Of a stretch of 64,000 nt of DNA, positions 6,237 to 43,302 are shown in pieces. The first letter of the stretch is position 1; every line of letters starts with the position of its first letter. Source of the stretch: an uncultured Planctomycetales bacterium (GTDB lineage: Bacteria; Planctomycetota; Planctomycetia; Isosphaerales; Isosphaeraceae). The DNA is taken from assembly GCA_903926465.1 (NCBI GenBank), contig CAIYJE010000067.1, positions 1 to 64,000 on the forward strand. Reading direction: 5' to 3'. The position numbers and the translations under genes are program-made. The notes below the pieces were generated by a model. The model searched no databases and had not been told where the DNA came from. It was given only the letters and a program-made list of their open reading frames with translations.

Positions 6237-6310
6237 ATCGCTGGCGGTCCCTGGTCTTGGGTTGAGGTGAATGACCCAGAGCCGTTCAAGAATTCGCAGA
6301 TGGCGAATTG

Positions 6311-6340
6311 TTGAACAACGCCATTCGCTGGCGATACAAT
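6311..6340 (+). promoter_or_regulatory. sigma-70-like promoter of the haem-binding HEAT protein
   Basis: TTGAAC (6311-6316), 18 bp, then TACAAT (6335-6340), ending 62 bp before the chosen ATG at 6403. Confidence 0.45.
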
Positions 6341-6402
6341 CGCAGCCCACTTTAGCTAATGCTCTCGCCAGGCCTAGCCTTCCTCACGAACTGGAACCGA
6401 AC

Positions 6403-9400
6403 ATGCCATCCGGGTTCACCCGCCTTCTTGGCCTTGCCGTCTCTTTGACGTTTGCAACGTCATGGATTTACGCAGACGCTCCCAAAGTGCCCGATGGTTT
6501 TTCGGCGAGGCTGGTGGCCAGCGTGCCGGCGGTCGAGTACCCCTGTCAGGTGGCAACCGCCCCTGGCGACGTATTGTTCGTGGCTGAAGATCCGATGGAC
6601 CAACGGGGTCCCTATGAAGCGTTTGACGGTCGAATTTTGAAGTTCAAAAACGAACAGGACCCGGTTGAATACGCCAAGGGTTTTCGCGCCATCCAGGGAA
6701 TGGCCTGGTTCAACAACAGCCTGTATGTCTGCCACATGCCGTTCCTGTCGGTTTTGCGAGATACGGACGGCGATGGTAAGGCCGATCAGAAAGACGATCT
6801 GTTCACCGACCTGGGGCCTACCAATAACCAGGGCTTGAATGACCACATTGTCTCCGGTCTTCAGTTCGGCATCGATGGCTGGCTATACATCTCCACGGGC
6901 GACAAGGGTGTGCCCGGAGTGACCCGCCGTGAAGACGGGCAGAAGGTTCAGATCAAGGGGGGTGGTGTGCTGCGTTGTCGCCCCGACGGAACCGAGATGG
7001 AAGTCTTTTCCTCAGGGACCCGCAACCACCTGGAGGCCAATCTCGACGAGCTGGACCGCATTTTTACCTACGACAATACCGACGATGGCGACGGCTGGTG
7101 GACCCGCGTGACCCACCACATCCAGGGTGGCTACTACGGCTATCCTTATGATTACCATGATCGCCAGGACCGGTTCCTGAACCGGATGGCGGAATATGGC
7201 GGCGGCTCTCCCTGCGGCGCAGTTTTTTACAAAGAAGATGCCTGGCCCGATGCTTACAAGGGCATTGGCCTGTGGGCCGAGTGGGGTAAGGGAAAGGTTC
7301 ACGGGTTCAAATTCGCCCCCAAGGGGTCGACCTACGAGGTGGCTCGGGATATTGATTTCGCTGCGCCTGCCAACCTCAAGGATTTTCGCCCGTTCGACCT
7401 GGCGATTTCCGAAGATGGCCGCACCCTGTACATTGCCGACTGGAATATGGGCGGCTGGGGAAACAAGACTGAGAAAGTGGGTCGGGTTTGGGCGGTCAGT
7501 CCAACCGAGGCCATTGCCACCAAGCCCCGTGGTTCTGATTCCGATCCTGTCGAGGCCCAGATCGCGGCCCTGGAGCACCCTTCGTACAACGAGCGAGTTC
7601 GGGCCCAGCATGCTCTGATCCACCAGGGAAAAGACGTGCTGCCGGTCGTCGTCAAGGCTCTGGAAGATAACCAAACCCCCATTCGCACCAAGATTCACCT
7701 GGTCTGGGTTCTGGACGGAATTGCTGGGGCGACCCCGGATGCCTCGTTGCCCCTGATCGAGGTGCTGAAGTCGGCCGATCCGCTGGTTCAGGGCGAGGCC
7801 GCCCGCGCTCTGGGTGATCGTCGTGTACCCATTGCCGTCGAGCAGTTAACCACCTTGCTGGACAAGAACATCGCTCCCACGCTGGCTCTGCAGGTGCTAA
7901 GCGCCTTGGGACGGATCGGCAGCCCCGAGGCTGTTCCTGCTGTTCTCAAGCGGCTGACGGACGGCGATTCGTATGTGGCGTTTGCGGCCCGAGTTGCGTT
8001 GCGGCGAATTGGTGACTGGGACGCCGTGGCGAGCCAGCTTGCCAAAGATCACCCTTCGGATCGGGTTGCCGCAGTGATTGGAGCCCTGGACGGAGTCTAT
8101 CAGCCGAGGGCGGTTGACCTGCTCCTCAGTTTGGGTGCGTCCGCCAAGGGGCAAGAGCCAGGCTGGGATGTGGGGGCCGATCAGCGGGCACTGGCCATTC
8201 GGGCACTCTCCAGCCTGGCCCGCAAGGCCCTACCTTGGGATGGAAAATGGTGGGGAACCCGGCCGTCTCAGGGCCAGCCGCCCAAGCAGACCGAGGCCTG
8301 GGAGCGAACCGAACGGGTTGAGCAGATGCTGGCAAGCTTGATCGAGTCTGACGAGGCTCCCATCCGCCGCGCGGCCATTGAAGCCGCGCAAGCTAACGCG
8401 TCTCCTGCTCAGGCGGCAGCCCTGCGGGCCCTGATCGGGAAATCCCGAGAGCTTGACGAGATCCGGCTGGCGATCAAGGCCCTCAAGAATGCCGGCGACC
8501 GCGAAGCGGTTCTGCCGTTGACCGCGCTGGTGAAGAGCAAAGATAACCCGCTTGAGCTTCGGGTCGAGGCGATTCGTGGGCTCGATACGCTTGCCGGTGA
8601 CGATGCCGTGCCTGTGTTCGTGGACCTTTTGGAAAACGGTGGCCTGGGTGTGGATGCGGACGTGCCACTGATTCAGGCGCTCGGGCGTCGCAAGGCGGAA
8701 GTGGCCTCGGCCACGCTCAAGGCTCGAGTCAAGGCCACCGAACCCCAGGTGCGAACCGCTGCCATTCAGGCACTGGCGGGGCTTGGAAAGCCTGAGGGGC
8801 TCAGTGAACTGCTGATGGAGCGGCTGGCTGATGAAGACAACGCGGTTCGGGCGGCCGCCATTGGCGGCTTGGGATCGCTGAAGGTCACCGAGGCTGTACC
8901 CGCCCTGATGAAGCTGGCCAATGAAGAACCGACCCGGTTCGAGGCCACTCGGGCCCTGGCAGCCATGCCAGACCCTCGGGCTTTACGCGTTTACCTGCGT
9001 GGTCTGGCGGATAAAAATCCTGAACTTCGGCGCGATGTTGCCGCAGCCGTTTCCTCGATTCGTGATCAGGCAGTGCCCGTCTTCCAGCAACTGGCCGACC
9101 GGAAAGAGCTGTCTCCTTCGGTGGTAACCGAACTGCGGAAGATCTACTCGGGAACGCAGCCCATCACAACCTGGAACGTTGTGGGGCCACTGGCCCGTGA
9201 TAACCATGCCCAGATTGATGCCGAGAAAGAAATTGACCTGGCCGGTGAGATTGAAGGTCTCGACGGCAAGACGCTCAAGTGGGTCAAGACCGACGCAATT
9301 GATCCTCGCGGCCAGATCGATCTGACCCGGCTCATGGCTGGTGACCAGCGCAAAGCGTTTGGATACGCCGAGCTGAACTCGCCAGATGCACGCAAGGCTG

Positions 9401-10125
9401 AGATGCTGATGGGTTCAGACGATAGCCTGATCGTTTGGCTGAATGGCAAGAAAGTGTTTGAATCCCAGGGGGATCGCGGGTTTACGCCCGGCCAAGACCG
9501 CGTTGAGGTGGATCTGCTGGCTGGCACCAACCGGGTGCTGGTGGAATGTGGGAACTCTGGCGGCGGCTGGCAGTACGCGGTGGAACTTTCGGCCCAGCCG
9601 GATCATGGGTTTCTGCAAGCTCCGGCTGCTGGCGCGTTTGATCCTGATGCATTCGCCAAGCATGCGGTTGACAACAAGGGCGACATTGCCAAAGGGCAGG
9701 CCCTGTTCAACGACCTCAAGGGGCTTGCGTGTATCAAATGCCACAAGGTTGGCAAAGAGGGGGGCGACGTTGGTCCAGACCTTTCCGGTATTGGTCTGAA
9801 GTACCCACGTCCTCAGCTTATCGAGTCGATCCTGTACCCATCGGCCCAGATTTTCTCTGGGTATGAGCCGGTGGTGATTGCGACCACGGATGGCCAGCTT
9901 CTGACCGGCATTTTGAAGCAAGATGACGGTGAGTCGGTCACGATCCAGGATGGCGAGGCTCGTACGGTGACCGTGCGCAAGCCTGATATTGAGGAGCGCA
10001 GGATCAGCGAGGTCTCTTTGATGCCAAACGGACTCGCCGAGGGACTCTCGCGTGAGGACTTTGCGGACCTGATCGGTTACCTTGAAACTCTCAAGGAAGC
10101 AACATCTGCCCCGGCGGCTCCCTGA
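6403..10125 (+). CDS. PVC-type haem-binding CxxCH protein with HEAT repeats
   Basis: This large exported protein has 1,240 residues and a signal peptide (LLGLAVSLTFATSWIYA). In order it carries an N-terminal seven-bladed propeller, 'membrane-bound dehydrogenase'-like domain of the Pirellula/Verrucomicrobium type (about 25-370), HEAT-like repeats (about 400-880), a beta-sandwich segment with DDSLIVWLNGKKVFE (about 910-1050), and a C-terminal haem-c domain with the single CIKCH motif near residue 1113. The family is thought to be extracytoplasmic and often sits near sulfatases or glycan-degradation genes, but the substrate is unknown. The ATG at 6403 is preferred because it directly begins the signal peptide; the open frame from 6271 adds 44 residues before it. 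The next gene starts 28 bp downstream. Confidence 0.92.
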   Translation: MPSGFTRLLGLAVSLTFATSWIYADAPKVPDGFSARLVASVPAVEYPCQVATAPGDVLFVAEDPMDQRGPYEAFDGRILKFKNEQDPVEYAKGFRAIQGMAWFNNSLYVCHMPFLSVLRDTDGDGKADQKDDLFTDLGPTNNQGLNDHIVSGLQFGIDGWLYISTGDKGVPGVTRREDGQKVQIKGGGVLRCRPDGTEMEVFSSGTRNHLEANLDELDRIFTYDNTDDGDGWWTRVTHHIQGGYYGYPYDYHDRQDRFLNRMAEYGGGSPCGAVFYKEDAWPDAYKGIGLWAEWGKGKVHGFKFAPKGSTYEVARDIDFAAPANLKDFRPFDLAISEDGRTLYIADWNMGGWGNKTEKVGRVWAVSPTEAIATKPRGSDSDPVEAQIAALEHPSYNERVRAQHALIHQGKDVLPVVVKALEDNQTPIRTKIHLVWVLDGIAGATPDASLPLIEVLKSADPLVQGEAARALGDRRVPIAVEQLTTLLDKNIAPTLALQVLSALGRIGSPEAVPAVLKRLTDGDSYVAFAARVALRRIGDWDAVASQLAKDHPSDRVAAVIGALDGVYQPRAVDLLLSLGASAKGQEPGWDVGADQRALAIRALSSLARKALPWDGKWWGTRPSQGQPPKQTEAWERTERVEQMLASLIESDEAPIRRAAIEAAQANASPAQAAALRALIGKSRELDEIRLAIKALKNAGDREAVLPLTALVKSKDNPLELRVEAIRGLDTLAGDDAVPVFVDLLENGGLGVDADVPLIQALGRRKAEVASATLKARVKATEPQVRTAAIQALAGLGKPEGLSELLMERLADEDNAVRAAAIGGLGSLKVTEAVPALMKLANEEPTRFEATRALAAMPDPRALRVYLRGLADKNPELRRDVAAAVSSIRDQAVPVFQQLADRKELSPSVVTELRKIYSGTQPITTWNVVGPLARDNHAQIDAEKEIDLAGEIEGLDGKTLKWVKTDAIDPRGQIDLTRLMAGDQRKAFGYAELNSPDARKAEMLMGSDDSLIVWLNGKKVFESQGDRGFTPGQDRVEVDLLAGTNRVLVECGNSGGGWQYAVELSAQPDHGFLQAPAAGAFDPDAFAKHAVDNKGDIAKGQALFNDLKGLACIKCHKVGKEGGDVGPDLSGIGLKYPRPQLIESILYPSAQIFSGYEPVVIATTDGQLLTGILKQDDGESVTIQDGEARTVTVRKPDIEERRISEVSLMPNGLAEGLSREDFADLIGYLETLKEATSAPAAP

Positions 10126-10153
10126 GCTGCCGGTGGACCGCTTGCCGGACTCT

Positions 10154-11029
10154 ATGCCCATGCCCCAGTCTGAGGCCGATCCTTCCATTCCGTCTCGTCG
10201 TCGAGAGCGTAGTGCCCGTTACCCGGGCGCTACGCTGTTTGATGCCATTGAACTGGTCCGCGAAATGGGCCAGCGTGGGGTCGATGGTCTACCATCGGCC
10301 TCGGTGGCAGCGGCCATGGGCTACAAGAACATCAAAACCCAGACCTTTTCCGCACGGCTCAGCGCGGCCCGGCAGTACGGGCTGATCACGTTGCGAGACG
10401 GCTGTTACTCGCTTACCGAGCTGGCTCGCTCGATTTTGCATCCGCTGGACCCTGGCCGGGTTCCCGCCTTGCACCGGCTGGCCTTTTTGCAGCCCGCCCT
10501 CAATGCGGAACTCTGTGAGAAGCTGGAAGGGCGCAGGGTTCCAGACATGCCGGCGCTGGCTAACTGGCTATACCATCACCACCAGATCACGGCCTCGGCA
10601 AAAGACGCCGCGGCCGAGATTTTTCTGACCTCCGCACGGGAGCTGGGGGTTCTGGGCGAAGACGGAATCTTGCGAACCGGTGGGGTTTCACTGCCCGATT
10701 CCACGGCGGATGCCGGCATGGGGCAGGATTCTTCAGAGGCTTCTACTGCCAGGCAAGTGACTCGCCTCCCTGCCAGCAAACCTGTACAGGTTCCACCAGC
10801 CAAGCCAGTCGTGGCTGTAATCAGTCAGGCCCCGGTTGAGCCCCGTGTGACCGTGGCTCCCCCCGTTGAACGCCCTGTTCCTGAAAATTCCGTGAGCTAT
10901 GACCTGCCCCTCTGGGGTCAAGATGAAGGCAAGCAGATCCGGGTCATTGCTCCCCAGTCTATTTCACGGTCAAGTTTGGAGAGATTTCTTCAGTCTTTCC
11001 AGTTGATGGTGCGTGTGGAAGACGACTGA
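10154..11029 (+). CDS. unrecognised protein with winged-helix-like N-terminal half
   Basis: The protein has 291 residues. I do not recognise a named family. Residues about 25-110 (FDAIELVREMGQRG, ASVAAAMGYKN, FSARLSAARQYGLI, YSLTELARSIL) read as a winged-helix or DNA-binding-like domain with an uncharacterised helical extension to about 175. A Pro/Val-rich low-complexity linker follows (about 195-250), then a short conserved-looking tail ending FLQSFQLMVRVEDD. There is no signal peptide, so it is probably cytoplasmic. The start is uncertain: ATG codons at 10154 and 10160 and a GTG at 10133 are all possible, and the frame even overlaps the previous gene. It might be co-transcribed with the haem-binding protein. 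A transcription factor role is only an inference. Confidence 0.6.
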   Translation: MPMPQSEADPSIPSRRRERSARYPGATLFDAIELVREMGQRGVDGLPSASVAAAMGYKNIKTQTFSARLSAARQYGLITLRDGCYSLTELARSILHPLDPGRVPALHRLAFLQPALNAELCEKLEGRRVPDMPALANWLYHHHQITASAKDAAAEIFLTSARELGVLGEDGILRTGGVSLPDSTADAGMGQDSSEASTARQVTRLPASKPVQVPPAKPVVAVISQAPVEPRVTVAPPVERPVPENSVSYDLPLWGQDEGKQIRVIAPQSISRSSLERFLQSFQLMVRVEDD

Positions 11030-11236
11030 ATCGATTCGTTCAGGCGGGCTTGGTTGCCCATCGAATGGCGATGCCATTTGTGACGTTGTCCGAACCGCGC
11101 AAATACGGTCTGATCTGCGAGTTTAATCGAACTGATCGTCTTGGTTCGGGACAGGCCGTTTGCCCCGTTGGAGCCAGTCCTTGCTGATTGGTTTTTACGG
11201 GCTGGCCAGGGTTGGTCTTCCTGGAGATTGGTGCTC

Positions 11237-12712
11237 ATGAACGACGCCTCTGCGTTTGACACGGGAACCGATGCTCCAGCCGGCCCGCTCACGGTCGGCC
11301 GCTGGGCGGGAACGGTCTTCGTCGTTCTGTTCCTGATGAGCCTGCTGGATTGGATTGACCGCTGGACGCTGGCTGGGGTTCTGACCGCACTCCAGGCTGA
11401 CCTGAAGATTGAGGATGCTGCGGCCGGTTCGCTGAATTCATTCTTTCTGGTGACTTACTGCATTGTGAGCCCGTTCATGGGCTATCTGGGCGACCGCTCG
11501 CAACGGACCCGGCTGCTAGCTCTTGGGGTGGGGGTCTGGAGCCTGGCCACCATAGGTACGGGGCTGGCGCACAACCTGACCGAGTTGCGGATTGCCCGCA
11601 GTTTGCTAGGTATTGGTGAAGCCACCTATGGCGTGATCGCCCCCTCGCTTCTGATGGATCTTTTCACCAGGCGTGGCCGAGCCCGCGTACTTTCGGCCTA
11701 CTATCTGGCCATGCCATTAGGGTACGCCATTGGGATCAAGCTGGGCGGCTATGTGGTTGATACAACCGGAAACTGGCGACTGGCCTTCTTTCTGGTTGGG
11801 GCCCCCGGCCTGTTCGCCGCGATTGCTGCGCTATTTTTGCCAGAGCCGGTCCGGGGGCTTTCCGAGGGGTACGATCCGGAACGCCTGAAACGGGACCAAC
11901 GCGTGGGCGCAACGGCCGCCGATTACCGTGACCTGCTCGTCAACTCTTCGTACACCTACACGCTCATGGGGCTGGCGGCGTATACCTTTGCCTTTGGTGG
12001 CTTTGCCTACTGGTTGCCATCGTACCTGGAACGGGTGCGTGGCATCCCCAGACAAGACGTGGGCAACGTGGTGGCTTTGACCGGGTTTGCGGCTGCCCTG
12101 ATTGGGATGCTGGCCGGCGGCTGGATTGCCGACCATCTGGCACGCAAGACCCCGAACGCCCTGTTCTTTGTGTCTGGCGCATCCATGTTGCTGGCGGTTC
12201 CCTGCATCCTGGCCGCCCTGTTTGCCAGCTCGACCTGGGCCATTGTGATCTGGTTATTCCTGGCGCAGGCTCTGATGTTTGCCAATACCGGACCGAGTAA
12301 TGCCGTGATCGCCAACGTGGTGCTGCCCAAGATGCGGGCCACGGCCTACGCCATCGGGACGTTGACGGTGCACATGCTGGGGGATGTTTGGTCCCCTTGG
12401 CTCATGGGATTGGTTTCCGACATGTTCGGCAAAGGGGCGTGGATGGGTACTCCGCCCGGCGAGTTCCTGGCCATGCTCGGATTTGTTCCTGTTGAGTTTC
12501 AAGGTGGGCGAACGAATCTGGGTGCCGGTATGCTAGTAGTTGTGCCAGCCGTGGCTCTTGGGGGTGTGGTCTTGCTCCTGGGGATGCGGCACCTGCCGCG
12601 TGAGATGGCTTTGATGCAGTCTCGATTGAAGGCCGAACTTGCACGGCAAGCTTCGGTTGAATCACGTTCCGGGGATTCCGCGTCCGGATCCGGTGCGGCC
12701 CCGCAGTCGTGA
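11237..12712 (+). CDS. MFS transporter, Spinster-like
   Basis: The protein has 491 residues with about 12 predicted membrane helices. The N-terminal half shows LLDWIDRWTLAGVL followed by the MFS loop GYLGDRSQRTRLLA between helices 2 and 3, and IARSLLGIGEATYGVIAPSLL in helix 4. This pattern is typical of the Spinster/SPNS branch, whose members carry lipids, organic acids or sugars; the substrate here cannot be inferred. The start at 11237 has GGAG about ten bases upstream. A longer reading from 11141 has no ribosome site. It lies 39 bp ahead of mdh on the same strand, so the pair may share a transcript. Confidence 0.85.
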   Translation: MNDASAFDTGTDAPAGPLTVGRWAGTVFVVLFLMSLLDWIDRWTLAGVLTALQADLKIEDAAAGSLNSFFLVTYCIVSPFMGYLGDRSQRTRLLALGVGVWSLATIGTGLAHNLTELRIARSLLGIGEATYGVIAPSLLMDLFTRRGRARVLSAYYLAMPLGYAIGIKLGGYVVDTTGNWRLAFFLVGAPGLFAAIAALFLPEPVRGLSEGYDPERLKRDQRVGATAADYRDLLVNSSYTYTLMGLAAYTFAFGGFAYWLPSYLERVRGIPRQDVGNVVALTGFAAALIGMLAGGWIADHLARKTPNALFFVSGASMLLAVPCILAALFASSTWAIVIWLFLAQALMFANTGPSNAVIANVVLPKMRATAYAIGTLTVHMLGDVWSPWLMGLVSDMFGKGAWMGTPPGEFLAMLGFVPVEFQGGRTNLGAGMLVVVPAVALGGVVLLLGMRHLPREMALMQSRLKAELARQASVESRSGDSASGSGAAPQS

Positions 12713-12751
12713 TTCGAGGCTCGAAACCTGAATTTCAAGGATTTTCGATCG

Positions 12752-13750
12752 ATGAGTTCTTCCCGACCGATCCGCATTGCAGTAACAGGTGCCGGTGGCA
12801 ACATTGGCTACGCGTTCATCTTTCGCGCGGCCTCGGGGGCCATTTTTGGGCCCCACCAAAAGGTAGAGCTGAGCCTGCTGGAAATTACCCCGGCCCTTCC
12901 AGCCCTCCAGGGAACCTTGATGGAGCTTGAGGACTGCGCATTTCCGCTGCTGGCGGGCATGAAAGCTTCTGACAAGGCGGAAGAGGCATTTGAAGGGGCA
13001 GACTGGGTGGTTTTGATTGGTGGCCTGCCGCGTAAGGACGGCATGACCCGCGCCGACCTGATCCGGGCCAACGGCCCAATCTTCACCGCGCAGGGCCGGG
13101 CGATCAACGATGCCGCTCGCCCCGATGTGCGGGTGCTGACCGTGGCCAACCCCTGCAATACCAACTGTCTGATTGCCAAGAGCCATGCCCCCCGCGTTCC
13201 GAACCAGAACTGGTTCGCAATGACCCGACTCGATCAGAATCGTGCGGTTTCACTGCTCGCCAGGCGGGCTGGGGTGGGCGTGGATGCGGTGAGCCGGGTG
13301 GCGATCTGGGGTAACCATTCAGACACCCAGGTGCCAGACTACAAGAACGCCCTGATTGGCGGCCGACCAGCGACCGATGTGATCTCGGACCACACCTGGC
13401 TGGCCGATGAGTTTGTGCCCACGGTTGCCAAGCGAGGCGCAGCGGTGATCAAGGCCCGTGGGGCAAGCTCTGCAGCCTCGGCCGCCAACGCGGCCGTGGA
13501 CAGTGTGCGGTCGGCCAGTGTCCCAACTCCGCACGGAGAGATTTTCTCGGCCGGCGTCTGGTCAGACGGCAGCTACGGCGTGCCCAAGGGGCTGATCTAC
13601 AGCTTCCCTCTGACGAGCGATGGTCACACCTGGTCGATCCGCGAGGACTTCAAGGTTGATCATGATCTCCAGGCCAAGATCCTGGCCTCTGCCACCGAAC
13701 TGCAGCAAGAGCGCGAAGCCGTGAAAGACCTGCTCGGCACGGCGCTCTGA
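12752..13750 (+). CDS. mdh: malate dehydrogenase
   Basis: The protein has 332 residues. The Rossmann motif is [11 protein letters not shown] (residues 11-21). The catalytic loop and proton-relay histidine are visible in [12 protein letters not shown], and [12 protein letters not shown] and TRLDQNRA are the substrate and cofactor motifs of the MDH group that includes thermophile and cytosolic eukaryotic enzymes. It reduces oxaloacetate to malate with NAD(P)H in the TCA cycle. AAGGA precedes the ATG by ten bases. The length is normal, and an intrinsic terminator follows within 125 bp. Confidence 0.95.
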
Positions 13751-13760
13751 GACGTGCCCT

Positions 13761-13875
13761 GAACCTGGGACCGATGGCTCGTCAGGCCAGGTACATGACC
13801 CAGGTTCTTCAAACGCGATCAACGCTACGCCAGTTTCAGAACCGCCAGGGCGACTGATGTCGTTCTGGCGGTTTT
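13761..13875 (+). terminator. terminator region after mdh
   Basis: There are two hairpins. The first pairs 13761-13769 with 13799-13807 (GAACCTGGG, 9 bp). The second pairs 13840-13848 with 13865-13873 (AACCGCCAG, 9 bp, with an inner CGAC/GTCG step) and runs into TTTT, making it the likely rho-independent terminator. Confidence 0.65.
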
Positions 13876-14237
13876 CGTTGGTGAACCACTTGCCTGGCTT
13901 TGGCCCGGTGACCCACAAGTTTGGCGGGGTAACCGAGGAAGTGGCTGCGGCTGGAGATCCGGTTCCCCAGTCCTGCCGCTGTTTGCCGGTTTGGTGATGA
14001 ACAGAAAGTCATAACCCTGGCAGGCGTAAGGAACTGTGGTGCTTGTTGGTAAATATTGCGGAATGTAACGATTTGTTTAATTGCGCCAGTTCTCGCGAAT
14101 TCCCTCATCTTGACGCCTCAAACTAGCCGAGCTATGTTTGCATCATACCAGGATGGAATCTCAGCGTACGACCGGGTAACTCGTAAGGGTTTCCCTGATC
14201 TGCCGATCTGCGGACCTCTCAAGGAGGAGAGTATCCC
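13876..14237. other. intergenic region upstream of the CARDB surface protein
   Basis: Apart from the promoter at 14110-14138 and an AAGGAGGAG ribosome site at about 14220, I see no gene or repeat in this stretch. Confidence 0.5.
14110..14138 (+). promoter_or_regulatory. sigma-70-like promoter of the CARDB surface protein
   Basis: TTGACG (14110-14115), exactly 17 bp, then TATGTT (14133-14138). This leaves a leader of about 95 nt to the ATG at 14238, which is preceded by AAGGAGGAG. Confidence 0.6.
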
Positions 14238-16178
14238 ATGCCGTCCCGTGACTACCGTACAGACCGCCGTGCTTCAAATCGTGGCCCCGTCATCCTGCCG
14301 TTTGACCGCCTGGAAAGGCGTCAACTGTTGACCGCTGCTGATGTCAGCTCGATCCAGCAGACCATTACCGGTCTTCTGGGAGCAGACTCAACAGGCACAG
14401 CGTCACCTAGCACGGCTGCGGCCTCGACTGGCGATACCGCCATCGCCACGTCCACGACCTCTACGCCAACTGCCAACACTACGGTCACGGTTGCTGCCGT
14501 GCCCATGGCTGCAACCACCACAGCGGCCGATCCCACGGCCACGGTGACGACCACAACCCAGGTCAGCGCCACGCCGGCTCAGACCGTAGCCACCACAACC
14601 GCGACCCCAACCACTGGAACCTCGGGGTCTTACACGGTTTTGCCCGGTAACGACGTCACGGCCGTCGGCCGTCTCACTCCGGTCTCGCTTTCGGCTCCTT
14701 CAAGCCTGGCTTGGGGACAGACCTTTGTCCTCACGGGCTCGATCCGGAATAACAGCTCGGTGGCCACCACCACACCGGCTGAGGCCAATATCTATCTCTC
14801 GCCAACCGCCAACACCGGTACGAATTCCGAGTCCATTGCCACCTTCACCGTGCCGGCCGGTCTGCCCCCTGGGGCACTTTTCAACTTCAAATACCCGCTG
14901 ACGATCCCCAAGAGCCCCAACCAAGCTCTGTTAGCCGGGTCGTCTTACTATATTACAACGACTGTCGGGTTTGCCTCGGCGACAAACACTGGCTCTGGAG
15001 CTCAGGGCGTTGACGCTTCCAAGGTCAATGTTGCTCAGGCGCTTCCCGCACATCTGATTGCCGCTGGAATCTCGGTGGCGCCGGGAACCAGTGACTGGGG
15101 TCAGGATCTGAACATCACCGCAAAGGTCACGAATTCGGGACCCGGTGATGCGCCGGCGACCAATGCTCGGATCATCCTGGTGCCTTACGGTCAGGATCCC
15201 TTCGGCCCAACCGGCTACACCATTGGCTCCGTGCCAATCCCACAGATTGCAGCTGGTCAAACGGTGTCTGGGGCTCAGGCTATCCGGCTACCTTATTCCC
15301 CACCCGCGGTGCTTGCCAACGTGAGCAAGTTCACGCTGGTCATGGTCAGCGATGCCACGGGGCTAGCGAACCCGGTGGTGACCCCTTCCACGTATCAGGG
15401 GCTTGGGCTGGATTGGACCACCGTTAATCTCACCGCCAGGCCGACAGATGTTCCGGTGACCCAGTTGCCCCAGGTGACAGCCACCGCGCTGACCACCCCA
15501 ACCGTGATCTCCTGGGGCCAGAATATCGACCTCAAGGTCCATGTTCAAAACGTTGGTTCGGGAGATGCTGGACCGTTCGATGTTCGGTTCAGCCTGATCC
15601 AGAATAACGTGGCGGGTGCCCCTGTGCTGCTGCTGGGCGATGCCCATGTGTCTAGCCTCAAAGCTGGCCAGTCTCAGGATGTGGTTCAGACAATCAAGTT
15701 GCCCAGCCAGGCACCGGCTGGTATGGTTGCCAGCGGGACCGCAGGCCGGATCATTGCCACAATTGATCCAAACCATACCTTGAACGAGGTTCGTAGCTCA
15801 GCCAGCGACACGATTCAGTCGCCCCCCATCACCCTCAAGCTGGTGGCCCAAGACGGAACCACCACCCCGGTGGTCACCTCAACCACGCATTCCACCGCAC
15901 CAACCCCTGTGACCACCAAGACCACCACCACCGCCCCTCCCGGCGCTGGCAGCGCAACCGTGGCCATCCCGATCACGACCCAGCCAACCAAGACCAAGAT
16001 TGTGCACAAGGTCGTTCGTCACAAGCCTCAGCCTGTTGTGCACCGCACCGTCACTCACCTGAAAGTTTATCCAGCAAAACATCAGGCGATTACCGTCAAC
16101 ACCCAACACAAGCAAATCCGGCTTGTGGCGGCAAAACTTGCCCAATCGGCATCTTCTCGGCCTAATCTTCCCGCATGA
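14238..16178 (+). CDS. planctomycete surface protein with CARDB repeats
   Basis: The protein has 646 residues. Its N-terminus carries FDRLERRQLLTAAD, a version of the planctomycetal export motif (LExLE-R-LL), instead of a classical signal peptide. A Thr/Ala-rich, probably disordered region follows (about 50-130). Three CARDB-like beta-sandwich domains come next, marked by SSLAWGQTFVLTGSIRNN, SDWGQDLNITAKVTNSG and ISWGQNIDLKVHVQNVG. The tail is Thr-rich then very basic (His/Lys/Arg, from about 580). It is probably an adhesive or structural cell-surface protein (inference). The ribosome site is excellent and the start secure. It stands as a single-gene unit between two intergenic regions. Confidence 0.8.
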   Translation: MPSRDYRTDRRASNRGPVILPFDRLERRQLLTAADVSSIQQTITGLLGADSTGTASPSTAAASTGDTAIATSTTSTPTANTTVTVAAVPMAATTTAADPTATVTTTTQVSATPAQTVATTTATPTTGTSGSYTVLPGNDVTAVGRLTPVSLSAPSSLAWGQTFVLTGSIRNNSSVATTTPAEANIYLSPTANTGTNSESIATFTVPAGLPPGALFNFKYPLTIPKSPNQALLAGSSYYITTTVGFASATNTGSGAQGVDASKVNVAQALPAHLIAAGISVAPGTSDWGQDLNITAKVTNSGPGDAPATNARIILVPYGQDPFGPTGYTIGSVPIPQIAAGQTVSGAQAIRLPYSPPAVLANVSKFTLVMVSDATGLANPVVTPSTYQGLGLDWTTVNLTARPTDVPVTQLPQVTATALTTPTVISWGQNIDLKVHVQNVGSGDAGPFDVRFSLIQNNVAGAPVLLLGDAHVSSLKAGQSQDVVQTIKLPSQAPAGMVASGTAGRIIATIDPNHTLNEVRSSASDTIQSPPITLKLVAQDGTTTPVVTSTTHSTAPTPVTTKTTTTAPPGAGSATVAIPITTQPTKTKIVHKVVRHKPQPVVHRTVTHLKVYPAKHQAITVNTQHKQIRLVAAKLAQSASSRPNLPA

Positions 16179-16408
16179 CCCGTGAAGTCTGACCATCTTG
16201 CCCAAGCCGTCGGCCAATCGCCCTAAATACTTGAGGAAAAAGAGCTAATAGCCTGGGTAATTCGTTGAAGCGTGGGGGTCTGCTGGCTATGCTTAGACGG
16301 AGTCGTTGGGGCTGGAGAAGCAAGCCAAGTAGTTTGGGTGCTTCTCCTCCCTGAGTCCAGGAACCTCTGGTTACCGTGACCAGTGTCAGTGCTTCCAGGA
16401 GTTCGAGC

Positions 16409-17185
16409 ATGAGTAGCGACCGTCGGACCATATCCGTGTCGGAGATCGCGAGCGGGTCCGCGGCGCTGGCCGAGGCTAGGTTCATACCACAGCGTTACGA
16501 GCCCAATTACGCGTATCCGCTGCTGGTACTCTTCCATGGACGGGGGGGTAATGAACAACACCTTGTGTCAGCAATGCCCGCGTTGAGTTGGCGGAACTAC
16601 ATCGGCCTGAGCCTTCGTGGACCCGAACCGATCGTTCGCCGTGGCGAGCGGATTGGTTACACGTGGGGACCTGCCTTTGCTCGTCCTGACCGGATGAATG
16701 AGTTTCATTCGATTCCCGAACCGCCTGGGCAAGCCTTCCAGCGCATTATGTCTGGATCTGGGCTTCATACGCATGAGCGGGTTGAAGATGCCTCGTTCAA
16801 CGCCATCCAAAACCTGCGCCGGACGCTTCACGTTCATTCGGAACGGATCTTCCTGGTAGGCGTGGGTGAAGGTGCTGCCGTTGCCTTTAAACTTGCGTTC
16901 CGATATCCCGAGCGATTTGCCGGAGTTGTGGCCATCAATGGATGGTTGCCTCCTCGCTCGCTGTCACGGGTTCGCGATTGCCGTTCGCTCAAGACGCTGG
17001 TGGTGCATGGTGAATGGAATGGTCGGGCCCCCGTTGATCATGCCCGCCGCAATGTTGGCATCTTGAAGGCTGGTGGCTTGAACGTCGCTTTCCAGTCTTA
17101 CCCCTGCGGCCATCGCCTGGCCTCACCCATGCTTGCCGACGTCGATAGCTGGCTGATGCGGCAGTGCTCGTCAAGCATTGGCTGA
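16409..17185 (+). CDS. alpha/beta-hydrolase-fold protein of the phospholipase/carboxylesterase type, catalytic serine missing
   Basis: The protein has 258 residues. The fold is clear from YPLLVLFHGRGGNE (oxyanion-loop strand), IFLVGVGEGAAVAFKLAFRYPERFAGVVAINGW (nucleophile elbow and helix) and a C-terminal PCGHRL histidine. The elbow normally reads G-F-S-Q-G but here reads G-V-G-E-G, so the nucleophilic Ser is Gly. The usual HG-x-x-D acid site reads HGEWN, with Asn in place of Asp. Only the His remains. It may be a pseudo-enzyme with a binding or regulatory role, or may use other residues. AGGAG lies seven bases before the ATG at 16409. A strong terminator follows. Confidence 0.75.
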   Translation: MSSDRRTISVSEIASGSAALAEARFIPQRYEPNYAYPLLVLFHGRGGNEQHLVSAMPALSWRNYIGLSLRGPEPIVRRGERIGYTWGPAFARPDRMNEFHSIPEPPGQAFQRIMSGSGLHTHERVEDASFNAIQNLRRTLHVHSERIFLVGVGEGAAVAFKLAFRYPERFAGVVAINGWLPPRSLSRVRDCRSLKTLVVHGEWNGRAPVDHARRNVGILKAGGLNVAFQSYPCGHRLASPMLADVDSWLMRQCSSSIG

Positions 17186-17304
17186 AATTGCTTGAGTCCT
17201 CATCGTGAATCACGGATCGATTTCCCGCCGGCTTGATCCGGAAACTTGTTCCAGGTGATTCACAAACCAAGTCAAATATGGCTAGCCTTCATCGTTAACA
17301 CCGA

Positions 17305-17340
17305 CGCTCAGGAGCCAACCACTCCTGAGTGTTTTTTTTT
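17305..17340 (+). terminator. rho-independent terminator
   Basis: CTCAGGAG (17307-17314) pairs with CTCCTGAG (17322-17329) across a 7-nt loop, followed by TG and a run of nine T (17332-17340). It terminates the esterase-like gene. Confidence 0.85.
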
Positions 17341-17395
17341 GCTGTGCTTTCGGTTTTGGGGGTCTTGAAGGCTGTTCCTGCTGGCTCACGATGGA

Positions 17396-17437
17396 GTGAC
17401 GTGGCACCGTGTCGCTTTCAACACGATTCCACGTCAC
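17396..17437. repeat. two-step inverted repeat
   Basis: GTGACGTGG (17396-17404) pairs with 17429-17437, and inside it CGTGT (17408-17412) pairs with 17421-17425. It lies 86 bp past the stop of the minus-strand receiver/phosphatase gene. There is no T-run on that strand, so a terminator role is unproven. Confidence 0.5.
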
Positions 17438-17522
17438 CGACCATGGTGTGGTCCCGATCAGCAGCCGATGGTGGCTGTGCTCCTCAGGCCCGACCAGGTG
17501 CAATTCCCTGCGGCGTGCCGCC

Positions 17523-18713
17523 TCACAAGGTGAGGGTGAAGATGGAGAAGTCGTCTTCCCACTTGTGCTCAACCGAGAGATCGAGTGTGTGCTTCATCAG
17601 GAGCTCCATGGCTGGAGCGCCCTGGCGGCCGGTTTTGTCCATATAGCTCAAGAACTCTTTGAACGGCCAGGTTTTTCGGCCTTCGATTTCGATTTCAAAT
17701 ACTCCGTCGCTATATACAAAGAGCACGCCATACGGGCCTACCTGGACCGTATCGGTGGGATAGTCCATCTCTTCGAAGGTGCCCACCACTGGACCCGTGG
17801 AGTTCAGGTCAATCATGGTGGCCGTCTCGGCATTCTCACCGGTGAGCAGCAGGGCAGGGGGATGTCCGCCCCCTGCGTACCGAACCACACGTTCCTCGCT
17901 GTCATACACTCCATACCAGGCCGTGAAGCATTTTTCTCCCTGCTGAGACATCTGGAACCGGTTGTTCAGGCCGGTCATCACCTCGCCTGGGTCCAGGAAG
18001 TTGACCCCTGGCAGCGCCCCTGAACGTAGACTGTTGAGCGCGGAGACCGAGAGCAGGGCGGCGGCAACACCGTGACCCACTACGTCGAGCAAGTAGAAGG
18101 CGAAGTATCGGTCGTCGATCCAGTGGTATCCGAAGGTGTCACCAGAGAGGCCCGTGGATGGTACGAACCTCCAATCGGTTTTGACCTTCCCTTCTGTGAA
18201 CTTGGCCGGCAGCAGCGATTGCACATACTCGGCGGCGCTTGCCACCTCACTCGCAATCAACTTCTGGCTCTTCTCCAGTTGCTGGTAAGCTTCGTTTCGC
18301 TCAAGCTGGGCAATGTAGCCTTTGGAGTGGTAGCGGATACGGGCCAGCAGTTCGAGTCGATCGGGCAGCTTGACAATGTAATCATTGGCTCCCAGGGCGA
18401 AAGCCTGCGCTTTGGTTGAGGCCTCCTCCTTGGTCGAGAGCACGATCATGGGAATTTCGCGAGTCGACTCGTTCGCCCTGAAGAGCTTGACCACCTCCAG
18501 GCCTTCAATCTCTGGCATCACCAAGTCTTGAAGAATGACCGTGGGTTTGATCGTTTCCGCGGTTTCCAGAGCCTTGGTCGGATCTTTGAGGTAGTGGTAC
18601 GCGATATCCGCTTCGCCCGCCAGCATCCGGCGGACGGCTTCGCCGATCATGGGTTGGTCGTCTATCAGAAGAACGGTTGCCTTGGTTACCGGCTTTGCAA
18701 CAACTTCAGACAT
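17523..18713 (-). CDS. response regulator with PP2C (SpoIIE-type) phosphatase output
   Basis: The protein has 396 residues. The N-terminal receiver has acidic pocket D18/D19, phospho-acceptor D63 (LQDLVMPE), and K115 (YIVKLPD). A coiled-coil linker (about 125-165) is followed by a PP2C/RsbU-type phosphatase domain with metal-binding D192, D210 and GHG (213-215), the YSDGVFE motif, and WEDDFSIF at the end. This is the RsbU/RssB-like partner-switching design: phosphorylation of the receiver controls dephosphorylation of an anti-anti-sigma (STAS) protein. No STAS or anti-sigma gene adjoins it. The Shine-Dalgarno before the ATG at 18713 is weak. Length and domain order are normal. Confidence 0.92.
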   Translation of the reverse strand: MSEVVAKPVTKATVLLIDDQPMIGEAVRRMLAGEADIAYHYLKDPTKALETAETIKPTVILQDLVMPEIEGLEVVKLFRANESTREIPMIVLSTKEEASTKAQAFALGANDYIVKLPDRLELLARIRYHSKGYIAQLERNEAYQQLEKSQKLIASEVASAAEYVQSLLPAKFTEGKVKTDWRFVPSTGLSGDTFGYHWIDDRYFAFYLLDVVGHGVAAALLSVSALNSLRSGALPGVNFLDPGEVMTGLNNRFQMSQQGEKCFTAWYGVYDSEERVVRYAGGGHPPALLLTGENAETATMIDLNSTGPVVGTFEEMDYPTDTVQVGPYGVLFVYSDGVFEIEIEGRKTWPFKEFLSYMDKTGRQGAPAMELLMKHTLDLSVEHKWEDDFSIFTLTL

Positions 18714-19509
18714 CAGGGTACTCTCGGCTTGATCGGGATATGGGCCTCAGCAGCCCGGGAAAGTCATGGGTAGAAGACGTGCGGTTTGAGAGGGGTGGTC
18801 CATGGCCGCGGGCCAGTCGATCGTCATCACCTGGCCCTGGAAACAAACTCGGCTCGCTCCAGGCCCGGTCTGTCTCCCAATCACCGTTCAGCACACTGAA
18901 ACGATTTGCCTGAGTTGCAGCGGAGTCGATTGGCTCAGAATGAATATGCTGAGCGATCCTTGCTGCGCTTGCAAGATCTCCGCTGAGTTTGCTGAACGGT
19001 CTTTCCCCCGCTCGCGGTAAGATTGGCTCAAGATTCCTTCCGATCCGGGGCTCCGGCAAGCTATCGCAAGGCTGGCCTGGGAGCGGAACCCTGGCCTTGG
19101 CCGACCTCGGTTGCCTGCTCGCTTGTCAGGAGTTATAGGCAAGCAAGGCTTCCTGATCCAGGATCGCCAGGCTCTTGATCCATCCTTCGAAAAACGCCCT
19201 GCGTGCCTGCATGTTGTGATTCGCCATCCTGGCAAGCGGATGTTTCAGGGCCAGTACCGGCGCTCCAGCCTCGCTCGCGTTTGCCTGCATCATGCGTTTA
19301 TCTGGGGCAGGCACCCGTTGCAGGAGGCGGAAGTTCGTCGCTATTGTAAAATCGCTTTGCAATCCTCCTGGAAGCGTTCATTGAACGCGTGACCAGGTTG
19401 CGGCTGTGTACTTTCTATCCGATGCCTTCCACCCTGAAGCAGGTTTGAGGAGCGGGCCTCGTCCTCCTTCGCAGGAATATTGGCTGGATGACTCTCGGAG
19501 TCTTTGGTG
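18714..19509. other. long intergenic region
   Basis: The region is about 800 bp between the divergent receiver/phosphatase and RDD genes. It holds one doubtful small minus-strand ORF (19126-19362). I find no RNA gene, repeat or terminator. The promoters of both flanking genes should lie here but are not obvious. Confidence 0.5.
19126..19362 (-). CDS. possible small protein, unrecognised
   Basis: This is a 78-codon frame on the minus strand. A strong AGGAGG lies directly ahead of a TTG start, but the spacing is unusually short. Codon use looks plausible, and the C-terminal half (ARRAFFEGWIKSLAILDQEA) could form a helix. No family is recognised and it may be spurious. Confidence 0.3.
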   Translation of the reverse strand: MQSDFTIATNFRLLQRVPAPDKRMMQANASEAGAPVLALKHPLARMANHNMQARRAFFEGWIKSLAILDQEALLAYNS

Positions 19510-19968
19510 ATGCACCATGCGGGGTTCGGGAAGCGATTTGTGGCGTTCTGGATCGATTATCTTCCAATCGCCCTGACAACGCTGGCGATTGCCTATTTCT
19601 TTCTGGGATTCGACACAACCGTTTCACGGTTCCTGGCCCGCGCGCCGGGTGATTTTCAGACCCGGATCGAGTTTCTCCAGGAGCGGAATCGGATCCGGAA
19701 CGCATCTTTATGTCTGTATGTTCTGTATTGTATGGTTCTAGAAGCCTCGGCCCTTCAGGGAACGCTTGGTAAATGGCTGCTGGGGATCCAGGTTGTTGAT
19801 ACGTCGGGCCGGCGTCCCAGCTACACTACGGCACTTTCGCGTAACCTTGAAAAGTTTCTGTCGTTCGCAATTCTCGGTCTGGGTTGTCTCTGGGTTATCT
19901 GGTCGCCCGAGAAACAGGCCTGGCATGATTCCCTTGCGGGGACATTCGTGGTAACTCGTGATGACTGA
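19510..19968 (+). CDS. RDD family membrane protein
   Basis: The protein has 152 residues. The RDD signature is present: an Arg in the first segment (GFGKRFVAFWIDYLP), then helix 1 (ALTTLAIAYFFLGF), a second helix around SLCLYVLYCMVLEASAL, the conserved GTLGKWLLGIQVVD loop, a third helix, and the terminal KQAWHDSLAGTFVV. RDD proteins are small inner-membrane proteins, some linked to ion transport, mostly of unknown function. I chose the ATG at 19510 (GGAG about ten bases upstream) over a TTG at 19504. It stands alone, with divergent or separated neighbours. Confidence 0.8.
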   Translation: MHHAGFGKRFVAFWIDYLPIALTTLAIAYFFLGFDTTVSRFLARAPGDFQTRIEFLQERNRIRNASLCLYVLYCMVLEASALQGTLGKWLLGIQVVDTSGRRPSYTTALSRNLEKFLSFAILGLGCLWVIWSPEKQAWHDSLAGTFVVTRDD

Positions 19969-40213: not shown

Positions 40214-40231
40214 ATGGCAAAGATTTGCCAT
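40214..40231. promoter_or_regulatory. 18-bp palindromic operator candidate
   Basis: ATGGCAAA and TTTGCCAT are perfect inverted repeats around a 2-bp GA centre, 80 bp before the FlgI-like ATG, within an AT-rich stretch. Confidence 0.5.
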
Positions 40232-40311: not shown

Positions 40312-42165
40312 ATGCCATTAGCCAATCGTCGACAGGCGCTTACCCTGGGAACATCGGTTGCCACGCTCTGCATATTGGGGGCGGCGCCCGATGGGAAAAA
40401 GTCTGGGGGTTCGTCAGGCAAGGGTCTGCTCGCCAGGAAAGAGCCACCACTGAAGTCTGATGAGACGGTTGGTGATCTTGCGTATGTCCGGACGGCCGGC
40501 GATGTGCGGGTGGAAGGGATCGGGCTTGTGGTTGGGCTCGGCGGGACCGGAAGTGATCCCAAGCCAGGGATCTACCGCAAGAAGTTGCTAGATGCCATGC
40601 ATGCAGCCATGGTTCCGCAGGCTGAGAAGATTCTGGCAAGCAAGAATGTTTCGCTGGTGCTGATTCGCGGTTCGATTCCGCCTGGAATCACGAAGGACGA
40701 TCGGTTTGATGTCACGGTGGAGCTTGAGCCCGATTCCGGGACACAGAGTCTTGCCGGTGGCGTGCTGCTTCGTACGGAGTTGAAGCAGATCGGTGCCGTG
40801 GACGGCAAACAACTGGAAGGTAAGCTTGCCGGCTATGCTGGTGGGCCGGTGGTTACCGGTAACACAAGCGAACCGGAAAATCTGCGGATAGGCCGGATTC
40901 TTGGTGGAGCGCGGTCACGGGCGGATGTTCCTTACTCGTTGATCATCAAGGATGAGCGTAAGAGCATTCGAACGGCGGCGCTGGTTCAATCGGTGATCAG
41001 CATGCGGTTCTTCGCGCTGGAGGGGATTGAACAGAAGGGGATGGCCGAGGCCAAAACGGATCAGTACCTGGTGCTCAAGGTACCCAAGGTCTATCACCAA
41101 AATCAGTCACGATATTTTCAGGTTTTGCAACTCCTTTCGCTCATAGACAATGCGGAGCTGCGAACGCAGCGGCTGGAGCGTTGGGAGAAGGAGTTGCTGG
41201 ACATCAAAACTTCGGGTGTTGCCGCGCTCCGTCTGGAGGGGGTTGGCAAGAACGCGGTGCCGGTCTTGAAAAAAGGTCTTGAGTCTGGTGACTCGAACGT
41301 GAATTTCTTCGCGGCTGAAGCGTTGGCCTACCTGGGCGATGGATCGGGAGTCAAGGTTCTTTCCGAGACGGCCGTGAAGCGGCCGGAATATCGCGCGTTT
41401 GCATTGGCCGCCCTGGCCGCCAGTGATCAGGCTCCAGCCATTGCCCGGCTTCGGGAACTGCTTTCTTACCCGGAAGTGGATGTTCGGTACGGGGCGTTCA
41501 CGGCCTTGCGGACCTTGGACCCGAACGATGTCTTTCTCGGGAAGCAGGCCGTGATTCGGGATGATCTGCCGGATCTCTCGGAAAATACGACCTCGGATCC
41601 CATGGCGCTTCAAATTGCTATCGCCAAGGCTCGCCAAAATCGACCTATTGATCCGTTCAGTCTGTATGTGGTGGATTGCGAAGGTCCGCCCCTGATCCAC
41701 GTTTCCAATACTGGGCGCTGTGAGATCGTTATTTTTGGACGCGAGCAGAAACTTCTGACCCCGCTGGTGCTGGGAGACCCCAATTCGGTCCTGATCAATG
41801 CCAGTGGCGATGACCACGAGGTTCAGATCACCCGTATTGCCGCCGGGGCCGGAGATCGCCCTGATCAGCAGATCAGTTCTGCGCCACAAATTTGCAGCGT
41901 GATCCAGGAGGTTGCGAACCTGGGGGTGAGCTATCCTCAAATAGTGGATTTGCTGAAAGCGGCCGAAAAGCAAAAAAACCTTGAAGGTCCGCTGCATGTC
42001 GATGCGCAGCCGGCAGCCAGCACAGACTACGAACGGGCTCAGCTTGCCGGTGACATCACCCCGGCGAAGAAAGATGGCGAAGTCCTTCAGGCCGGTGGAG
42101 CGAAGGTGGCGCCCAAGAAGCGTCTGTTTGATCGCCTGCTCCCTGGTCCTCGGAAATCGAAGTGA
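40312..42165 (+). CDS. FlgI-like (flagellar P-ring) domain fused to HEAT-like repeats
   Basis: The protein has 617 residues. The N-terminus has a twin-arginine-like NRRQALTLGTSVATLC signal. Residues about 55-275 match FlgI blocks: VEGIGLVVGLGGTGSD, RFDVTVELEPDSGTQSLAGGVLLRTELK, LRIGRILGGARSR and KTDQYLVLKVP. A HEAT-like helical repeat region follows (about 300-410: VPVLKKGLESGDSNVNFFAAEALAYLG and neighbours), then a novel C-terminal domain and a basic tail. E. coli FlgI has about 365 residues and no HEAT repeats. AAGGAGG lies eight bases before the ATG. No flagellar gene adjoins it. It may be an envelope ring-like protein that is not part of a flagellum (inference). Confidence 0.82.
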   Translation: MPLANRRQALTLGTSVATLCILGAAPDGKKSGGSSGKGLLARKEPPLKSDETVGDLAYVRTAGDVRVEGIGLVVGLGGTGSDPKPGIYRKKLLDAMHAAMVPQAEKILASKNVSLVLIRGSIPPGITKDDRFDVTVELEPDSGTQSLAGGVLLRTELKQIGAVDGKQLEGKLAGYAGGPVVTGNTSEPENLRIGRILGGARSRADVPYSLIIKDERKSIRTAALVQSVISMRFFALEGIEQKGMAEAKTDQYLVLKVPKVYHQNQSRYFQVLQLLSLIDNAELRTQRLERWEKELLDIKTSGVAALRLEGVGKNAVPVLKKGLESGDSNVNFFAAEALAYLGDGSGVKVLSETAVKRPEYRAFALAALAASDQAPAIARLRELLSYPEVDVRYGAFTALRTLDPNDVFLGKQAVIRDDLPDLSENTTSDPMALQIAIAKARQNRPIDPFSLYVVDCEGPPLIHVSNTGRCEIVIFGREQKLLTPLVLGDPNSVLINASGDDHEVQITRIAAGAGDRPDQQISSAPQICSVIQEVANLGVSYPQIVDLLKAAEKQKNLEGPLHVDAQPAASTDYERAQLAGDITPAKKDGEVLQAGGAKVAPKKRLFDRLLPGPRKSK

Positions 42166-42726
42166 AGTGAGTGGTCGGGCCGGTTTTGGGTTAAGCGGCA
42201 GGCGGGAGCCGCTTGGCGGTTTGAAAAAACGTGACAAATTCTAGATCACGGAAATGGCTATAAGCGTGGCTTGAAGTGGGGAGTCCGGTCGTGGCGACGT
42301 TGCCACTCATCCGGAGGATTCTAAAGTCTCACGCCCTACGGTACGAAAAATAGTCTTGACGGTCAGGTTCGTCACGCTGAGCAGGCCGGGATCAACTGAT
42401 CCTGTCCAAAGGTTGTGCTCCTTCGTTTCAGGGGTAACAACTGGCACAGCCGAACCGCACCAGGCGCGAAAATCGCGCATGACCGCCGAAACGCATGGGG
42501 CTCGGTTCCAGGATCACTTCCTGGGGGCGAGTTCCTCGATGTCGGAACAGTCCTCACGTGGGTCGAACACGGCGGTGGAATCTGGCGAGGGTCTGCAAGG
42601 GCCTTGGCCGGTTTTCATTTACGGGTTCGAATTCAGGACGCCACGAGATTGAGGTTGTTCCAGCCGGAGGGGTCAGGATACCCCCGAGGTCTCGCGCGGA
42701 ACGATTTGCGAGTGGAGTCCTCGACA
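42166..42726. other. intergenic region upstream of the HTH-receiver regulator
   Basis: About 560 bp. A weak 7-bp hairpin (AAGCGGC 42193-42199 with 42208-42214) may mark the end of the upstream transcript. The frame of the next gene is open back to 42415, but its homology starts at 42727. No promoter or RNA gene is recognised. Confidence 0.45.
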
Positions 42727-43302
42727 ATGAGAAAGGTGTTCACTACAGGCCAGGTCGCGAAGATTTGCAAGGTCGCGCCCAGGACTGTAAGCAAGTGGTT
42801 CGATTCGGGCCGCTTGCGCGGATATCGAATCCCCGGATCCCAAGATCGCCGCATCCCGCGGGAGCATCTGGTCCGGTTCCTTAAAGAACATGGTATGCCT
42901 CTCGGTGAACTCGAAGCCGAGGTGTACAATAAGGTTCTTGTCATCGGTGCCGACTCCCCCCTCCAGGCATCGCTCCGCGATCAACTTCGCGAGTCTGATG
43001 ACTTCCGGATTGAAACTGCGGCTAGCGGCTTTGAAGCCGGTATCCGCGCTGAAAGTTTCCATCCTGATTGCGTGATCATTGATATGGCCTTGGGCCGTAT
43101 CGAAGCCGGGCAGATCGCGCAAAACCTTAAGCGGAATTCTGACCACGCCACGACCATTCTGGTTGCTTTGACCAGTGAGGAACCGGGCGAGGAGCTATAT
43201 GGTCTGGGCTTCAACGACGCATTCAAAAAGCCATTCGACGCCGCTCTGCTTGCAGAGCGGATCAAACGGCTGGTTGCCACGAAGAAGTCTGAGGAGCCCT
43301 GA
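42727..43302 (+). CDS. helix-turn-helix (BldC/MerR-like) protein with C-terminal receiver domain
   Basis: The protein has 191 residues. Residues 1-60 are an excisionase/MerR-like DNA-binding domain (FTTGQVAKICKVAPRTVSKWFDSGRLRGYRIPGSQDRRI). Residues 68-185 are a receiver with D119 (IIDMALG), T149 (ALTSEE) and K168 (FKKPF), but the first acidic pair is reduced to one Asp (GADS). The HTH precedes the receiver, the reverse of most response regulators; this order is known from planctomycetes. It may act as a transcription factor controlled by an orphan phosphorelay or without phosphorylation. The ATG at 42727 is set by homology; a long non-homologous upstream extension is rejected. Confidence 0.88.
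   Translation: MRKVFTTGQVAKICKVAPRTVSKWFDSGRLRGYRIPGSQDRRIPREHLVRFLKEHGMPLGELEAEVYNKVLVIGADSPLQASLRDQLRESDDFRIETAASGFEAGIRAESFHPDCVIIDMALGRIEAGQIAQNLKRNSDHATTILVALTSEEPGEELYGLGFNDAFKKPFDAALLAERIKRLVATKKSEEP

Follow-up and report, generated by a model that had tools for sequence, protein, structure and literature searches.

The flagellar P-ring is a ring of 26 subunits in the peptidoglycan layer, its protein FlgI is chaperoned by FlgA, and FlgI is usually treated as a flagellar marker; what, then, is the role of a FlgI-like protein interrupted by HEAT repeats in a planctomycete of the family Isosphaeraceae? The gene lies on the forward strand at 40312-42165 of the stretch of DNA analysed here (the window, 64,000 nucleotides), begins with ATG, is open throughout and encodes 617 aa; that it is coding is seen from the comparison with its closest relative (62% amino-acid identity), in which codon positions 1, 2 and 3 are identical at 69, 77 and 40%. 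The host genome measures 6.9 Mb and is 99.7% complete, and named relatives support its placement in the Isosphaeraceae. A literature search for FlgI with HEAT repeats or in Planctomycetes, in which journal coverage was partial, found no paper on the protein, and neither FlgI nor the P-ring is mentioned in the main texts of three papers, on the essential genes of P. limnophila (PMC10632474), on the proteome of T. immobilis (PMC8567305) and on the Gemmata pore (PMC5287468).

The initial annotation was to be given up if a profile search gave no real FlgI similarity, and the similarity proves real: Pfam matches FlgI at 1.1e-19 over aa 53-276 (profile positions 2-224 of 343; 71 bits against a cut-off of 25.3), and an HMM of true FlgIs scores the sequence at 54 bits, the top of 500 shuffles reaching 5.1 bits. 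Solved FlgI chains are matched by phmmer at 1.9e-8, alongside HEAT-like alphaReps, and when 33 homologues are aligned with true FlgIs by hhalign, aa 53-263 align with a probability of 99.8 and an E-value of 1e-27. The NCBIfam FlgI models match at 5e-16, yet their scores (58.7 bits against a cut-off of 300, and 39 against 557) are so far under the cut-offs that the protein is not an orthologous FlgI. The HEAT-like repeats that had been noted are likewise present, with a Pfam match to HEAT_2 (PF13646) at 4e-8 (33.8 bits against a cut-off of 27.7), and the helices at aa 281-402 of the AlphaFold model form the helical hairpin repeats that define HEAT.

The original description had HEAT repeats, and then a new domain at the C-terminus, come after the FlgI part. 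That arrangement has to be revised: the repeats interrupt FlgI rather than being appended to it, and the C-terminal domain (aa 446-566, 41647-42009) is FlgI's own C-terminus, the rest of its lower inner-ring domain. The AlphaFold model (pLDDT 85, pTM 0.81) finds FlgI structures as its top Foldseek matches (7nvg, 7cbl, 7bgl and 8z5n; E-values from 6e-11 to 1e-10), in alignments of 525 columns against targets of about 300 aa that thus span the HEAT insert; for the complete chain the TM-score is low (0.20/0.39), which is to be expected when domains have moved but does not prove that they pack identically. When an HMM of the HEAT forms is run against true FlgIs, 35 of 47 give a second match ending at or a few residues from their C-terminus. 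An HMM of the C-terminus only scores true FlgIs at a median of 7.5 and a best of 14 bits, whereas none of 940 shuffles exceeds 6.5 bits; a reversed control reaches 8.2 bits, so that an individual C-terminal score carries little weight and more can be drawn from where the matches consistently fall. By hhalign, the C-terminal domain alone matches the last 57 FlgI columns more weakly (probability 41, E-value 3e-4). Together, the structural alignment, the second matches and the C-terminus-only HMM identify HEAT as an insertion, and we reject the idea of a new domain.

All three FlgI domains are therefore present, in the order found in FlgI (PF02119; PDB 7bgl, 7cbl, 7nvg): aa 53-275 (40468-41136) hold IRU, OR and the first helix of IRL, in the domain names of the cryo-EM study of the P-ring (PMC8298488), and the C-terminal part of IRL with its helices follows after the HEAT solenoid (aa 276-411, 41137-41544) that breaks the domain up. 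The solenoid resembles those of HEAT_2 proteins, from which it differs in being embedded in a FlgI fold, within a protein that carries a putative export signal. In the P-ring, a flexible loop (264-295) in IRL probably gives the additional density seen below the ring (PMC8298488); an insertion in IRL would accordingly send the HEAT arm toward the inner-membrane side. The solenoid is the best-conserved part of the family, with a mean majority fraction of 0.63 against 0.57 in the FlgI part and with 29 of its 136 columns conserved at 90% or more. It is followed by a variable linker (aa 412-445, 41545-41646), mostly absent in relatives outside the Isosphaeraceae, and the protein ends in a variable, mostly disordered tail (aa 567-617, 42010-42162; pLDDT below 50 at aa 584-604 and 611-617).

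The residues through which FlgI meets the flagellum have changed. Assembly of the P-ring requires the rod-facing Lys63 and Lys95, and FlgH is packed in a hydrophobic pocket (PMC8298488). Among the 47 true FlgIs of the phylum, position 63 is K or R in 34 and position 95 in 35, against 29 and 19 of 127 HEAT forms, and the window protein has K and Q. At the FlgH pocket, I18 is replaced by E in 100 of 127 HEAT forms and M46 by E or D in 96 of 127; positions 18, 46, 50 and 104 are mostly charged or polar across the family (E, A, A and R in the window protein). Core FlgI residues, glycines and leucines among them (such as L26, G30, S96, L97, G99 and G100), are retained, so the body of the protein has been kept and both flagellar contact faces are gone.

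The initial annotation had also asked whether the genome holds other flagellar genes and a separate flgI, a complete set with this protein as the only FlgI being the finding that would speak against it. The protein is indeed the only FlgI match in its own genome, which holds no true FlgI; in this 99.7% complete assembly neither FlgH nor any rod or hook domain was found, and the complete set is thus missing. The absence of flagellar context holds for the contig itself, on which no other flagellar family among those tested was found, and has to be qualified for the genome, where a reduced flagellar export core lies on other contigs (FlhA on C12, FliP and FliF on C8).

These data bear directly on the reading that Pfam alone would suggest, namely that the protein serves these bacteria as their ordinary P-ring component or is what remains of one in decay. 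We consider this hardly credible and reject a P-ring function: FlgH and the rod are absent, the contact residues are lost, the Isosphaeraceae glide or are non-motile (PMC7716859), a true FlgI exists separately in flagellated relatives, and conservation in nearly every genome of the class (see below) rules out decay. Profile-based annotation would label the protein a P-ring component all the same, and FlgI matches are therefore unsafe as evidence of flagella.

The Isosphaeraceae have been remarked on as poor in flagellar genes (PMC5352709). Among 45 of their genomes FlhA is present in 42, FliP in 39, a FliF-like protein in 37 and rod or hook proteins in 3; one genome has FliF, FliG, FliO, FliP, FliQ, FliR and FlhB consecutively, and next to FlhA it carries a sigma factor, a ParA-type ATPase and an FlhF-like SRP-GTPase. 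On these counts the protein could be pictured as a P-ring-like outer component of a type III export apparatus of flagellar origin, retained by the Isosphaeraceae in the absence of rod, hook and filament. The family as a whole largely refutes this, and we reject it as very improbable: in the loci read the gene is not clustered with export genes, flagellated relatives hold the protein besides their true FlgI, and 24 of 25 Planctomycetia genomes that lack FlhA retain it, single-contig genomes among them (G443, G445 and G448, whose full-length genes were read), so the protein is not tied to the export core.

As an observation in its own right, the export core (FliF, FliG, FliO, FliP, FliQ, FliR, FlhB, FlhA, the FlhF-like protein and the sigma factor) occurs in nearly all Isosphaeraceae genomes, and, with rod and hook missing, as is FlgH in the host genome, it is a possible separate flagellum-derived secretion system; its positions are C8:21040-27495 (locus L093) and C12:25034-27220 (L064) in the host genome (G000), and 5716-19939 in locus L095. 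Besides full FlhA, second proteins of about 505-533 aa, whose match to FlhA is confined to its C-terminal half (profile positions of about 310-656), are found in genomes G028, G037, G359, G365, G371, G412, G452, G462, G466, G470 and G493.

Far from being confined to its source genome, the gene belongs to the core set of the class Planctomycetia, being present in 157 of 159 sampled genomes (E at or below 4e-61), the same sample from which the FlhA-less genomes come. The true FlgIs that accompany it in flagellated relatives measure about 356-433 aa. Outside the class, a divergent form occurs in at least 37 sampled genomes of the phylum, and the 11 of these homologues that were read have an identical order of parts. 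A tree built on the shared N-terminal region separates the HEAT forms from true FlgIs, that of Salmonella included, at 100/100, the HEAT forms of the class making one group and those from outside it another. The protein is most likely derived from FlgI or sister to it, and the proposal that it was repurposed from the P-ring, or arose in parallel to it, is well supported by its separate clade, its retention without FlhA and the lost contact residues. That an entire class keeps a FlgI-fold core gene without need of a flagellum clearly exemplifies a flagellar ring component put to other use.

Where in the cell the protein would act is suggested by the N-termini. A lipobox precedes the FlgI body in at least 47 of 63 homologues from other Planctomycetia families (a lower bound, the 16 negative cases including mis-called starts, such as those of L110 and L111) and in 11 of 11 from outside the class, never with Asp at +2. 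In the Isosphaeraceae it is found in 0 of 53, the window protein included; the N-terminus has instead an RR followed by a hydrophobic stretch (aa 1-40, 40312-40431), which has low confidence in the AlphaFold model and would serve as an export signal. The Tat-like character ascribed to this signal is present in weak form: measured against S/T-R-R-x-F-L-K, the window reads NRRQALTLG, strong versions occur only in some relatives (e.g., SRRAFLKA in L107), and a Tat motif is no constant trait of a family in which a lipoprotein signal is usual elsewhere. From the lipoboxes of relatives and the RR-plus-hydrophobic N-terminus of the Isosphaeraceae we infer a location in the envelope; since the lipobox is gone in this family, anchoring in the window genome may differ. 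Most homologues share their lipoprotein character with FlgH, the L-ring lipoprotein, to which no sequence match was seen.

The lipobox and the conserved HEAT surface would also suit a monomeric or dimeric peptidoglycan-binding lipoprotein, its FlgI body acting as a wall-binding module and its HEAT arm as a docking surface, with no ring at all. The OR domain of P-ring FlgI resembles both peptidoglycan-binding folds and the ring-building N3 domains of secretins such as GspD, InvG and PilQ (PMC8298488), although the present protein has no secretin barrel and no sequence match to secretins was seen, and the loss of the rod and FlgH interfaces is in keeping with this reading. What makes this alternative fairly unlikely in our judgement is the retention of the core FlgI residues and of every FlgI domain, down to the C-terminal piece that contributes the inter-subunit sheets of the P-ring.

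We rather favour the view that the protein is an ancient, flagellum-independent paralogue of FlgI with a housekeeping function in the periplasm or outer membrane. That it is a non-flagellar envelope protein is very probable; that it is anchored to the outer membrane or peptidoglycan is likely, by a fair margin over chance; whether it forms an oligomeric ring or arc, an idea that comes from homology, seems to us evenly balanced. We see it as a probable ring or scaffold, anchored to peptidoglycan or the outer membrane, whose HEAT arms would bind a partner. The precursor would be exported and become an outer-membrane lipoprotein in most lineages, or in the Isosphaeraceae keep or lose a signal without cysteine that either anchors it or is cleaved; the FlgI body (IRU, OR and IRL) would then associate side by side to give a ring or arc within the peptidoglycan layer; and the HEAT solenoid, set in the lower inner-ring domain beside the site of the flexible loop of P-ring FlgI, would project from the edge presumed to face the inner membrane and bind a conserved partner, perhaps a protein.

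One candidate setting is offered by the crateriform structures of Planctomycetia, outer-membrane pits that fasten outer and inner membrane. They are reported from the entire surface of Isosphaeraceae cells (PMC7716859) and have been likened to press-studs joining the two membranes, at about 100 per cell (PMC5394234); a ring fold present nearly throughout the class would fit such a component. Divergent homologues outside the class argue the other way, a distribution that is too wide if Phycisphaerae are among those genomes, since Phycisphaerae are without crateriform structures (PMC8882080, PMC7783415), and we regard membership in the pits as distinctly improbable.

The gene neighbourhood offers another approach. 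Outside the Isosphaeraceae, smc lies directly downstream on the same strand in 59 of 62 loci of the class and in 11 of 11 from outside it (70 of 73 in all), with a median gap of 3 bases in the class; it has been lost from the locus in the Isosphaeraceae (0 of 51). Across the phylum (loci L099-L211), the two genes thus appear as a two-gene unit. This linkage points to a gene that would be expressed for growth rather than for motility, and a direct functional link with smc is only a lead. Planctomycetes divide without FtsZ. A bolder version of the favoured reading, which we consider unlikely as a whole, would make an outer-membrane-anchored ring of FlgI bodies a part of the basic cell plan, for example at the base of crateriform pits or at the budding site, co-expressed with SMC, which organises the chromosome: a new, flagellum-free envelope machine founded by a flagellar ring protein. 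A class-wide envelope protein of ring fold beside smc is in any case a tractable entry to the composition of the pits or to FtsZ-free division.

Upstream of the gene, at 40214-40231, is a perfect 8+2+8 palindrome, ATGGCAAAGATTTGCCAT (ATGGCAAA-GA-TTTGCCAT), which is unique within the window, has a chance expectation of 0.01 at two or fewer mismatches and is a possible, lineage-specific operator. The operator claimed for the gene is thus borne out as a palindrome of this locus and rejected as a family trait, since upstream of homologues only 1 of 86 other loci has it within 3 mismatches (L156, the best match, with 3).

Downstream, the window keeps the order found in relatives up to 46667 (an HTH-receiver gene, PMT, MoaC and a polyprenyl synthetase) with smc, which elsewhere lies in between, missing; this retained order supports orthology. 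The locus of the closest relative (L101, genome G011) has the same order, but no MoaC is called between the PMT-like gene and the polyprenyl synthetase. The first of these genes (42415-43302, forward strand; true start uncertain) encodes a fusion of HTH_17 and a response-regulator receiver, and its place near the FlgI-HEAT gene is conserved in 36 loci.
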